This document shows, piece by piece, positions 1,398-49,290 of a DNA stretch of 55,957 nt. The stretch is from a virus. Below the pieces are notes generated by a model, which did not search any database, was not told where the DNA came from, and worked only from the letters and a program-made list of their open reading frames with translations. The position numbers and the translations under genes were made by a program. The number at the start of each line of letters is the position of its first letter. The first letter of the stretch is position 1. The stretch spans positions 1-55,957 of the IMG/VR virus record IMGVR_UViG_3300028831_000182. The stretch is one strand, 5' to 3'.

Positions 1398-1994
1398 GTG
1401 ATGACCAGTTGCCCCGTCGTCCCTGACCCCCGGGTGTCCACTGAGGTGGATGCGTGGGAGCTGGTGCGCCGCACCCAGGACGGTGACCAGGCCGCGTTCG
1501 GCCAGCTGTATGACCGCTACGTGGACGTGGTGTTCCGTTTCATCCTGTACCGGGTGGGGGACCGACCACTGGCTGAGGACCTGACCAGTGAGACGTTCTG
1601 CCGCGCGCTGCGCCGGATCAGCTCGGTGGCCTATCAAGGCCGGGACGTCGGGGCCTGGTTTATCACGATCGCCCGCAACCTGGTGCTCGATCACGTCAAG
1701 TGCTCACGCACGAAGCTGGAATGCACCACAGCGGACATGCTGGACGCCTGTGACGACCGCAGCCCGGACCGGATGGCCATCGACCGGGACATCACCCGCC
1801 GGGTGATGCGCTGCATTCAGCGGTTAAGCCCAGAGCAGGCCACCGCGGTCACCCTGCAGCACATTCACGGGCTGTCCGTGGCTGAGGTGGCTGCCGCCAT
1901 GGGCAAGAGGGATGGCGCAGTGAAGGCCCTGGCCTACCGTGGGCGGGTGGCGCTGGCCCAGATGCCTGAGCTGCAGAGGCTGGTGGACTGGTGA
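1398..1994 (+). CDS. ECF-type RNA polymerase sigma factor
   Basis: A 198-residue sigma-70 family protein of extracytoplasmic-function size. Region 2 lies at about residues 28-75, with the AFGQLYDRYVDVVFRF and LAEDLTSETFCRAL segments typical of sigma region 2.1-2.4. Region 4 lies at about 135-185 (LSPEQATAVTLQHIHGLSVAEVAAAMG, read as an HTH followed by AVKALAYRGRVAL). There is no region 3 and no anti-sigma domain. Preceded by AGAGGAAACC next to GTG 1398; ATG 1401 is the alternative start. The stop overlaps the start of the next gene. It should redirect host core polymerase to a promoter subset, perhaps phage late genes, but no matching ECF promoter was found. Confidence 0.9.
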   Translation: MMTSCPVVPDPRVSTEVDAWELVRRTQDGDQAAFGQLYDRYVDVVFRFILYRVGDRPLAEDLTSETFCRALRRISSVAYQGRDVGAWFITIARNLVLDHVKCSRTKLECTTADMLDACDDRSPDRMAIDRDITRRVMRCIQRLSPEQATAVTLQHIHGLSVAEVAAAMGKRDGAVKALAYRGRVALAQMPELQRLVDW

Positions 1995-47340: not shown

Positions 47341-47702
47341 CCAGGGCATTCACCCTGGGTTATCTTCCATGTGTGCGCGACACACCTATTCGTGTGCGGA
47401 TCCCTGACGAGCTGCGGGCCTTAGTGGTCGACGCAGCCGACCGGGACCGGCTCAACCAGTCCGCCTGGATCCGTGAGGTCCTGGCCGCGGTGGCGTCCTC
47501 GCCGCTGTCCCTGCCGCAGATCCTGGACGTGCTGCGGTCCGCGCCGCCGGCCGGGATCAACGGGCATCACCGCTGGAAGTCCCCGAACCCGCAGATGGGG
47601 GCCAGCGTGGTGGCCAGGTCGTGTTTGCATCGAGCAGACCTGATCGAGCGGTTCCCCACTTTCAACAGGTGCGCCGGCTGTGGTCGGGAGTGGCCGCGGT
47701 GA
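47337..47702 (+). CDS. Ribbon-helix-helix protein
   Basis: A 121-residue protein. RVRIPDELRALVVDAADRDRLNQSAWIREVLAAV (about 17-50, read in pieces) is an RHH/CopG-type motif; the C-terminus has SCLHRAD and CAGCGREW, a zinc knuckle. GTGA-coupled both sides; GTG 47373 is a possible shorter start. Likely a DNA-binding regulator or a packaging accessory. Confidence 0.68.
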   Translation: MTRAFTLGYLPCVRDTPIRVRIPDELRALVVDAADRDRLNQSAWIREVLAAVASSPLSLPQILDVLRSAPPAGINGHHRWKSPNPQMGASVVARSCLHRADLIERFPTFNRCAGCGREWPR

Positions 47703-48481
47703 CCCTGGCGCCTGACGCGCCGCGGGTGCATCCGTCCCTGCTGGATCTGACCGAAGACCAGGCCATTGAGGCAGCGTGCTGGGCTCACCTGGGGGTGTGG
47801 TCAGCGCGGAAGCTGGGCCTGGACATGGCGCCGCTGCACTGGGAGTGGTGCGACCTGGCGATGGATTGGACCCGTGGGTGTGTGGTCGCCCCGCGGGAGC
47901 ACGGGAAGTCCCAAACGTTCGCGGTCAACGCCACGGTGTGGGAGTCGCTGATCAGCCCGGGGCTGTGGACGTACATTTTTAGCGCCACCCTGGACCAGGC
48001 TAAGGCCCTGTTAGGGCAGATCAAGGCCACCATGGAGGTGGTCAACCCGGTGATGATGGCTGGCGCGTTCGTGGACAACTTCACCGAGGTGGAGTTCGCG
48101 AACGGATCGAGGGTGACGGTCGCCGGGGCCGGTAAGAGCGTGCGTGGTGCGCACCCGGACCGGATCGTGGGCGATGACGTCCTGGAGGAAGAGTCCACCA
48201 TGACCGAGCTGGGCCGTAAGCGGATGCAACGCTGGTTTTTCGGCACGGTGGGTGGGATGGCTCACCCGGGAACCACCAGGAAGGTGCGGGCCCGCTGGTG
48301 GGATGACCGGGTGGTGCTGCGAATGCCACCTACGCGAATACATCTTATTGGCACCCCCTTTCATGAAAGAGATTTGTTAATGAGTATGAGAACGCATCCG
48401 CTTTATCGTTATAGAAGATATGCTGCCGAGTTTGATCCGGCTAATTGCGTTCCTGGTTCTCTAGCCGTAGAGGCGAGTTAG
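47699..48481 (+). CDS. Large terminase, ATPase domain only, with recoded 3' end
   Basis: A 260-residue packaging ATPase. Walker A APREHGKS (about 64-71), Walker B RIVGDD followed by E (about 155-164), C-motif-like LIGTPFHERDLL (about 216-227) and PLYRYRRYAAEF (about 234-245). Full TerL proteins are roughly 450-550 residues, and the nuclease domain is missing here. The last 50 codons (from about 48327) switch to AT-rich codons (AGA, TTA, TTG) unlike the rest. The terminal LAVEAS-stop recurs, in different codons, at the end of the HNH gene. The nuclease half is probably encoded outside the window. Confidence 0.85.
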   Translation: MTLAPDAPRVHPSLLDLTEDQAIEAACWAHLGVWSARKLGLDMAPLHWEWCDLAMDWTRGCVVAPREHGKSQTFAVNATVWESLISPGLWTYIFSATLDQAKALLGQIKATMEVVNPVMMAGAFVDNFTEVEFANGSRVTVAGAGKSVRGAHPDRIVGDDVLEEESTMTELGRKRMQRWFFGTVGGMAHPGTTRKVRARWWDDRVVLRMPPTRIHLIGTPFHERDLLMSMRTHPLYRYRRYAAEFDPANCVPGSLAVEAS

Positions 48482-48485
48482 TAGA

Positions 48486-48529
48486 CTTCTCAGAGAAGGC
48501 GCCCCCGCAGTGCTACCACACTCGGGGGC
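48486..48529 (+). terminator. Hairpins after the terminase ATPase gene
   Basis: CTTCT-CAG-AGAAG (48486-48498) is followed by GCCCCCG-C-AGTG-CTACCA-CACT-CGGGGGC (48501-48529). No U-tract. Terminator-like; it could also be RNA structure carried with the HNH insertion. Confidence 0.5.
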
Positions 48530-48562
48530 CGGTCCGACTATCTGTGAACTGGAGCGTCGAAC

Positions 48563-49171
48563 GTGTGTGAGTGTACGTTCACTGAACGATGGTCTGCCAT
48601 CCCGACCTGGTAGGAGTCCTGCCAGGTCAGCACCTGCGGTCGTGTCCTGAGCCTGCCTAGGCAGGTGCTCCGCTCGAACGGGTCGTCGTACAGGGTCAGC
48701 GGGGGCCTGTTGGCCCAGACGTCGCGCCCTGATGGGCGATTAGAAGTGAAGCTTTCTCGGGATAACAGCGCCGTAACGGCCCTGGTCCATCAGCTCGTTT
48801 TGTTTACGTTCGTCGGGCCGCGTCCTCCGGGCCAAGAGGGATGTCACTGGGATGGTGACAACCAGAACAACCACCTGACCAACCTTCGGTGGGACACCAG
48901 CCTGGCCAATTCGGCGGATCAGCGTCGGCACGGAACCCATTGGAACACCGCTAAGACGGAATGTACTTATGGCCATCGGCTGGCATTTCCGAACCTACGC
49001 GCTGGTTACTGGGAGAAGTACGATCGCCGCGGCTGCCTGGCCTGCCACCGAGCTAACACGGCATGTCGGAACGCGCTGGCCAGGAAGGGGATCCTGCTCG
49101 ACTTCCAGACTGAGGCTGACTGGAGGTACGAGGAGATCATGCGTGGCCAGCTGGCGGTGGAGGCCAGCTAG
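48563..49171 (+). pseudogene. HNH homing-type endonuclease interrupted by an amber codon
   Basis: From GTG 48563 the frame reads VCECTFTERWSAIPTW, then TAG (48611-48613), then ESCQVSTCGRVLSL: together a NUMOD4-like start. HNH_3 core follows: LVHQLVLFTFVGPRPPGQEG, CHWDGDNQNNHLTNLRWDT, NSADQRRHGTH. A C-terminal zinc region has CTYGH and CLACH. A start at GTG 48665 would give a 168-residue protein without the N-terminal part. The amber means it is broken, read through, or restarted. It ends in GQLAVEAS, nearly the end of the terminase protein upstream. Confidence 0.75.
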
Positions 49172-49290
49172 TTGTCCTTGCGGCGGTGTCGGGGTTTGCG
49201 GTCGCGCCAGAGCACCCAGGGCATGAGGACCACGAGTGCGAACGCGATAGCGAACTCGACCATTTTGTGCGTGAGGGGCCAGGGAGGCAT
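49168..49290 (-). CDS. Small single-TM protein
   Basis: A 40-residue protein with a TM helix (VEFAIAFALVVLMPWVLW) and a very basic tail (RDRKPRHRRKDN). It converges on the HNH gene, overlapping its stop by three bases. No clear SD. The membrane-plus-basic-tail pattern is coherent, so probably real. Confidence 0.45.
   Translation of the reverse strand: MPPWPLTHKMVEFAIAFALVVLMPWVLWRDRKPRHRRKDN

Follow-up and report, generated by a model that had tools for sequence, protein, structure and literature searches.

Why should two adjacent phage genes of different function end in the same peptide, written with different codons? The question is raised by a terminase ATPase gene and the HNH endonuclease gene behind it in a viral sequence of 55,957 nucleotides (IMG/VR record IMGVR_UViG_3300028831_000182), here called the window. 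Both genes end LAVEAS-stop. A preliminary description of the sequence had proposed that an HNH cassette lies at the terminase 3′ end, that it supplies a replacement coding tail, and that the displaced native tail has become fused to the HNH reading frame. This core is well supported by an HNH-free relative of the terminase, by the ends of homologous HNH genes and by a second, cultured phage, Darwin. With a probability of roughly 0.83, we interpret the locus as a homing-type NUMOD4-HNH element at the 3′ end of the terminase ATPase gene, with a replacement tail and with the native tail displaced into the HNH frame. The features are listed in table 1.

Table 1. Features of the terminase–HNH locus (positions in the window).
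Feature	Position	Strand	Basis
Terminase large subunit, ATPase-only gene	47699..48481	+	phrog_28155, KellEzio gp4 and L005 matches
AT-rich replacement tail of terminase, 53 codons and TAG	48320..48481	+	GC3 change point; L005-clade protein tail
GC-rich hairpin GCCCCCG...CGGGGGC directly 3′ of terminase stop, no T-run	48501..48529	+	sequence and predicted fold
Full-length NUMOD4-HNH endonuclease gene with in-frame amber	48563..49171	+	homologue alignment; NUMOD4 and HNH_3 on read-through
HNH open reading frame as first listed (nuclease and Cys motif, without NUMOD4)	48665..49171	+	PF13392, phrog_1492
Most likely displaced native terminase end GQLAVEAS-stop, C-terminus and stop of HNH frame	49145..49171	+	beyond the family's common end; GC-rich; L005 GSVAVEAA-stop
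DNA 3′ of HNH stop resembling DNA 3′ of L005 terminase stop	49172..49186	+	11/15 bases

The terminase ATPase gene

The upstream gene opens with a GTG, closes with a TAG at 48479–48481 and has the C-terminus GSLAVEAS. Its product matches phrog_28155 in a profile search (E = 7.6e-87, residues 2–258 of 260) and is 54% identical to gp4 of the Arthrobacter phage KellEzio, annotated as 'terminase large subunit, ATPase domain'. The best relative, 75% identical and likewise 260 residues long, is the terminase of L005, a 66 kb IMG/VR record of the same GC content. TerL is naturally split in this family: the Arthrobacter phages KellEzio, Kitkat and DanielleIgnace carry an ATPase-only gene of equal length, then RusA, with a nuclease gene a few genes on. 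Given the equal gene length in these phages, the stop at 48481 marks the normal end of the protein and not a truncation. Queries with the KellEzio and DanielleIgnace proteins gave no match to the nuclease half in the window, and that half is either highly diverged or past the end of the contig. No prophage relatives of the terminase were confirmed in GTDB genomes. Elsewhere in the window, near head-protein genes, a 198-aa frame (1398–1994, plus strand) matches phage RNA polymerase sigma factors (phrog_1740, E = 1.6e-22).

A shift to AT-rich codons about 50 codons before the terminase stop had been noted from the sequence, and the measurement bears it out: GC3 falls abruptly from 0.855 before codon 208 (position 48320) to 0.321 over the last 53 codons. 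The change point is confined to ±6 nucleotides (support interval 48314–48326, log-likelihood gain 28.4, Fisher p = 8e-14) and falls in the well conserved MPPTR motif. The lowest-GC3 stretch of 48 codons in the 23 open reading frames scanned starts at this same position, and the zone is the lowest-GC 160-nt stretch of the whole contig. A promoter hidden in it was considered and rejected, as the zone is without a consensus site.

The HNH gene

The HNH gene was first placed at 48665, which is merely the first start codon after an amber stop; this start has had to be revised. The true start is a GTG at 48563 with GGAG upstream, from which the gene encodes MCECTFTERWSAIPTW, an amber codon at 48611–48613, then ESCQVSTCGRVLSL and the HNH part, all in frame with the terminase. 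Alignments with full-length homologues extend unbroken across the TAG, from 48575 to about 49144. The shorter frame contains an HNH_3 domain (PF13392, E = 1.6e-5, 24.9 bits against a cut-off of 24.8) and matches phrog_1492 (E = 2.2e-46); NUMOD4 (PF07463, E = 7e-5) is found only when the TAG is read through, and the two domains do not share one open frame. By descent the gene is a member of the NUMOD4-HNH family; it is probably broken, or makes a shortened enzyme from a later start. Because the amber codon cuts the NUMOD4 domain, its product has probably lost its activity as a homing enzyme. The hairpin between the two genes is absent from the terminator-scan output and has no Rfam match; it is perhaps a terminator or processing signal before the HNH gene.

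The homologues of the window HNH protein are 35–44% identical to it, and with this protein alone as query no close relatives were found in IMG/VR. A member of the family is also seen in the Mycobacterium phage Coco12 (1616–3353), where lysin A is annotated as two joined pieces with an opposite-strand HNH gene inside; this is a possible intron or other split arrangement, present in several related mycobacteriophages.

HNH genes adjacent to terminase are often part of the packaging module (as discussed in PMC10448857; PMC12724721), and the gene could be such a packaging partner of the terminase, of the HK97 gp74 type, with the shared peptide functional or accidental. This is very improbable. The split-terminase relatives have no HNH gene of the window family around the terminase, so that conservation beside terminase is not seen; the gene has the homing-type NUMOD4 and HNH_3 architecture and carries an amber codon; its relatives adjoin ribonucleotide reductase (RNR), helicase, polymerase, lysin and tRNA genes; and tail sharing occurs also at RNR, RusA and a VRR-NUC-like gene, as described below.

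Nor is splicing an attractive account of the HNH gene and the repeated tail. Phage terminase introns are known (PMC10448857), the two genes share one frame and the spacer folds well (z = –2.7), all of which would suit a group I intron or intein. Against this, Rfam searches were empty at the gathering threshold and up to E = 5, and most of the structured stretch codes for NUMOD4. Moreover, the terminase is complete before the insert, at the length of its L005 counterpart, and a second LAVEAS-stop would be needless if the insert were spliced out. We regard an intron or intein as exceedingly improbable.

The shared end

The terminase ends CTA GCC GTA GAG GCG AGT TAG and the HNH gene CTG GCG GTG GAG GCC AGC TAG, so that the third base differs in five of the six shared codons, in agreement with the near-complete synonymous difference described initially. 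The GC-rich, genome-typical codons described initially for its GQLAVEAS end are confirmed; they are clear at this end only, the GC3 of the HNH gene as a whole being intermediate (0.74). The duplicated peptide is short (six residues); the end-anchored similarity of the pair is 31, a value of at least 31 being found in 2 of 3430 mismatched control pairs in which HNH ends were set against foreign upstream gene ends.

Is LAVEAS simply how this HNH family ends? None of ten homologues ends in this way; their ends vary around 'RYxEIM', with 0 to several residues past 'EIM'. Eleven of 13 HNH queries align only to 49150 or less; the exceptions are the query from the window and that from Darwin, a gene with a borrowed tail of its own. 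A family-wide LAVEAS end, which would have spoken for inheritance within the HNH family, was thus not found among the homologues examined.

The terminase relatives supply the other half of the argument. L005 has no match to the window HNH gene, and its terminase ends PGSVAVEAA-stop in GC-rich codons. The resemblance between the DNA behind its stop and the DNA behind the HNH stop (table 1) is reached by 0 of 224 other TAG sites in the window, and we take it as modest evidence. Eight more IMG/VR relatives have similar terminase ends with a tail GC3 near that of the body, and no HNH gene of the window family lies within 7–11 kb around their terminase. Uninterrupted native terminase ends are thus present in relatives without the endonuclease (L005, KellEzio, DanielleIgnace and others), and an AT-rich tail behind a GC-rich body, which would have counted against a replacement tail, occurs in none of the HNH-free relatives. 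The closest of these is 75% identical, and the native site of the window is not matchable base by base. Given L005 and the absence of LAVEAS ends among the homologues examined, the native terminase end has most likely been displaced and now forms the end of the HNH gene. The native terminase of a close HNH-free relative would then be predicted to run GC-rich into GxLAVEAS-stop, followed by TTGTCCTTGCGG.

An empty site at base level for Darwin

Evidence for a displaced native tail consists of the peptide match and the L005 comparison in the window, and of a base-level match in Darwin, a cultured Corynebacterium phage (NC_042086) found among the homologues of the window HNH gene. The large RNR subunit of Darwin ends LQPALEGTDIESCVSCML, and the HNH gene behind it (gp72), which overlaps the RNR stop, ends LQPALEGTEVDSCVSCML. 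No HNH gene is present at the RNR site in Darwin's sister phages. The native RNR gene of C3PO and Stickynote, with the DNA behind it, ends AGC TGT GTA AGC TGT ATG CTG TAA CCACAATGACC, and the end of the Darwin HNH gene with the DNA behind it is exactly this native end with its following DNA; Darwin's own RNR gene ends GTC AGT TGT ATG CTG TAG. The last eight codons of the Darwin HNH gene (stop included) and the downstream DNA are therefore the native RNR end. The comparison with HNH-free relatives that the preliminary description had called for has accordingly come out in its favour, through the GC-rich tail of L005 and, at base level, through C3PO, Stickynote and a further sister, Zion. Because the preceding codons of the Darwin HNH tail resemble Zion, a different relative seems to be the source of the element, which would have recombined into a C3PO-like phage within the last codons.

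Darwin and the window share the HNH family and the anatomy, but differ in several respects. In Darwin the host gene is RNR, NUMOD4 is intact, the displaced tail is longer (18 residues), and the RNR gene differs from that of an HNH-free sister in its last codons only, without an AT-rich zone. No description of the Darwin arrangement was found in papers.

Recurrence in other phages

A survey of tail sharing at 174 HNH places from phages and IMG/VR, with 119 distinct ends, gave two more clear cases. In L100 and L223, the latter a prophage in the isolate genome of Leifsonia sp. Root227, the invaded gene is RusA (PF05866, E = 3.5e-17 in L100); in L100 it ends GVDVKVRRLA and the HNH gene GVDIKIRRLA. 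In L081 and L144 the invaded gene is one that we take to be VRR-NUC-like from a reading of its sequence alone; in L081 it ends GSILDQLRSIR and the HNH gene GAILDQMQAVR. The end-anchored scores of L100 and L081 are 47–48 against a control maximum of 33, and 6/8 and 5/7 of their shared codons, respectively, differ. In both, as in Darwin, the invaded gene and the HNH gene overlap, the stop of the one with the start of the other. Close relatives, and with them an HNH-free allele, were not found for L100 and L081.

A tree of 122 HNH proteins, made with the ends left out and weak in many of its branches, requires four separate changes to account for the four genes with borrowed tails. Roughly 2–3% of the examined HNH genes of the family show tail sharing, a figure that would miss short or out-of-frame tails. 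One further candidate was set aside: in the IMG/VR records L169 and L091 a hydrolase-like gene ends ADRINEVQE and the overlapping HNH gene STNEIRE, with a score of 25 that lies inside the control range. It may be a fifth case of tail sharing, with a short tail (NEVQE/NEIRE).

Recurrence also bears on whether the window locus is an assembly chimera of an environmental contig, as a sharp composition boundary in a virus record without reads might suggest. A chimera would need two joins that kept both frame and alignment register in low-identity DNA, and the same architecture is present in the cultured phage Darwin and in the Leifsonia isolate; we consider this explanation highly unlikely.

Origin of the AT-rich tail

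The AT-rich zone comprises 53 codons and the displaced tail only 6–8. Simple insertion leaves some 45 AT-rich codons upstream of the displaced piece without an account, and has to be supplemented by either co-conversion from a donor or the loss of the greater part of the native tail. Since the zone far exceeds the displaced tail, and since spacer and HNH gene, with GC contents of 0.62 and 0.61, are not AT-rich, the terminase tail and the rest of the cassette may differ in history.

The protein encoded by the tail is closest to the L005 clade, with 77% identity as against 78% in the body, and it retains the clade-specific residues HERDLL, MRT and FDPA.C.PGS shared with L005. The recoded tail thus still encodes a protein of the window/L005 clade, and its spelling has been altered far more than its protein. 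Against other relatives the tail is more conserved (0.51–0.69 identical) than the body (0.42–0.55). Its amino-acid make-up (GARP 0.38, FYMINK 0.21) is unlike that of an AT-rich genome, the corresponding values in L025 being 0.21 and 0.38. L025 (IMG/VR 3300028829_004180) is a 37% GC phage with the same kind of split terminase ATPase gene, in a family that spans 37–69% GC. A search with the tail turned up no AT-rich donor, nor was one found in named phages, where the best match was 62% identical.

Two alternatives to a tail acquired with the element have to be weighed against these observations. In one, the events were separate: ordinary mosaic recombination with a phage of lower GC supplied the tail, and insertion of the HNH gene near the terminase stop took place at another time. 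The GC content of spacer and HNH gene would fit such a history, as would the membership of L025 in the TerL family and the position of the 5′ boundary in the MPPTR motif, where ordinary crossovers are likely. However, the AT-rich zone stops exactly at the terminase stop before the HNH gene, the native-looking second tail lies exactly behind that gene, so that a replacement tail was needed at insertion, and the residues of the tail are not of the AT-rich-genome type. Separate events are, on balance, rather improbable. In the other, the tail was not imported at all; it was re-spelled in place under selection for dissimilarity, either to evade the endonuclease or to avoid recombination of the two tail copies with each other. 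Equal identity to L005 in body and tail despite different codons, the GC-type residues of the tail and the high fraction of differing shared codons in the window, L100 and L081 are what this would produce. Yet about 45 of the recoded codons exist in a single copy and could not all be part of a recognition site, the boundary is abrupt, and, as the tail is otherwise more conserved than the body, 0.77 against 0.78 hints at a slightly foreign tail. We judge re-spelling in place unlikely.

Our preference is for import of the AT-rich tail from an unsampled lower-GC sister phage. The AT-rich spelling is not fully explained by this, given the composition of spacer and HNH gene, the residues of the tail and the fruitless search for a donor.

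A proposed mechanism for tail replacement

On the preferred reading, an HNH protein of this kind would cut an allele lacking the HNH gene, close to the terminase stop. With a donor phage as template, repair would copy the element together with about 160 bp of donor terminase, with the 5′ crossover near 48320 (in Darwin, within the last codons) and the 3′ crossover in the shared tail, so that the HNH frame would end in the last codons of the recipient itself. The element would thus have brought, or been acquired together with, a foreign AT-rich last part of the terminase with its own stop, and the terminase would have stayed complete. The native last 6–8 codons or so and their stop would have been pushed behind the insert to become the C-terminus and stop of the HNH frame. 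The different spelling of the new tail keeps the protein, and would remove the target site and lower RecA-type deletion between the two tail copies. Cutting, homing, co-conversion and evasion of cleavage are put forward here as the processes that would produce the observed layout.

Relation to known gene-end elements

To our knowledge, the replacement-tail layout was previously familiar only from fungal mitochondria. The likeness to atp6 of Allomyces, drawn in the preliminary description, is apt: the window locus is probably a gene-end element of that type, with a complete host gene bearing a divergent tail, a displaced native tail and uninterrupted relatives. The same arrangement is documented in Glomus sp., where atp6, atp9, cox2 and nad3 carry an inserted C-terminus and an endonuclease ORF, followed by the displaced native C-terminus; the inserted copies show 64–81% nucleotide identity with a nearly unchanged protein, as in Allomyces macrogynus atp6 (PMC3630166). 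As in the window, an endonuclease ORF in these mobile-ORF hybrids is inserted where an essential gene ends and comes with a divergent substitute for its C-terminus, the displaced native C-terminus is closer to endonuclease-free relatives, and the differences between copies are mostly synonymous (PMC3630166). Unlike the window, with its phage gene and NUMOD4-HNH enzyme, they are mitochondrial and encode LAGLIDADG or GIY-YIG enzymes. In the fungal hybrids the ORF may be read in phase with the host gene, whereas in the window it is the HNH frame that takes over the displaced tail and stop codon.

In phages, homing endonuclease genes cluster near terminase and RNR genes (PMC10448857). T4 MobE, an HNH gene between nrdA and nrdB whose start overlaps the nrdA stop, resembles the window in lying directly behind an essential gene, but neither a replacement nor a displaced tail is reported for it, and MobE of Aeh1 splits nrdA without restoring it (PMC2988022). 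In actinophages, insertions are known that change how the preceding gene ends or how that end is spelled, as in the window: the HNH gene gp51 of mycobacteriophage Omega gives lysin A a new 3′ end (PMC3706429), and gene 60 of YungJamal has a synonymously changed gene-end repeat (PMC4351075). These are, however, reported as single curiosities, in which an HNH frame ending in a displaced tail is not described, and YungJamal gene 60, unlike the window HNH gene, is of unknown function and opposite orientation (PMC4351075). No phage report of a replacement tail together with an HNH frame ending in a displaced tail was found in the open-licence literature.

It is an evenly balanced question, in our estimate, whether phages carry recurring gene-end homing elements as a class, in which the HNH enzyme targets the last codons of conserved genes, a re-spelled tail gives immunity and stability, and the displaced tail and stop end the HNH frame. 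Each transfer would then rebuild both genes, and such elements would have arisen repeatedly, at terminase, RNR, RusA and the VRR-NUC-like gene. For annotation, the locus is a caution that an HNH gene can bear the C-terminus of its neighbour, and tail replacement explains some abrupt composition shifts at phage gene ends. The layout occurs at four different phage genes, and closely related HNH-free phages are in culture: the pair of Darwin and C3PO makes homing, co-conversion and the role of the re-spelled tail directly testable. The finding shows how, by tail replacement and with neither intron nor intein, a free-standing endonuclease may target conserved coding sequence and still leave the gene alive.
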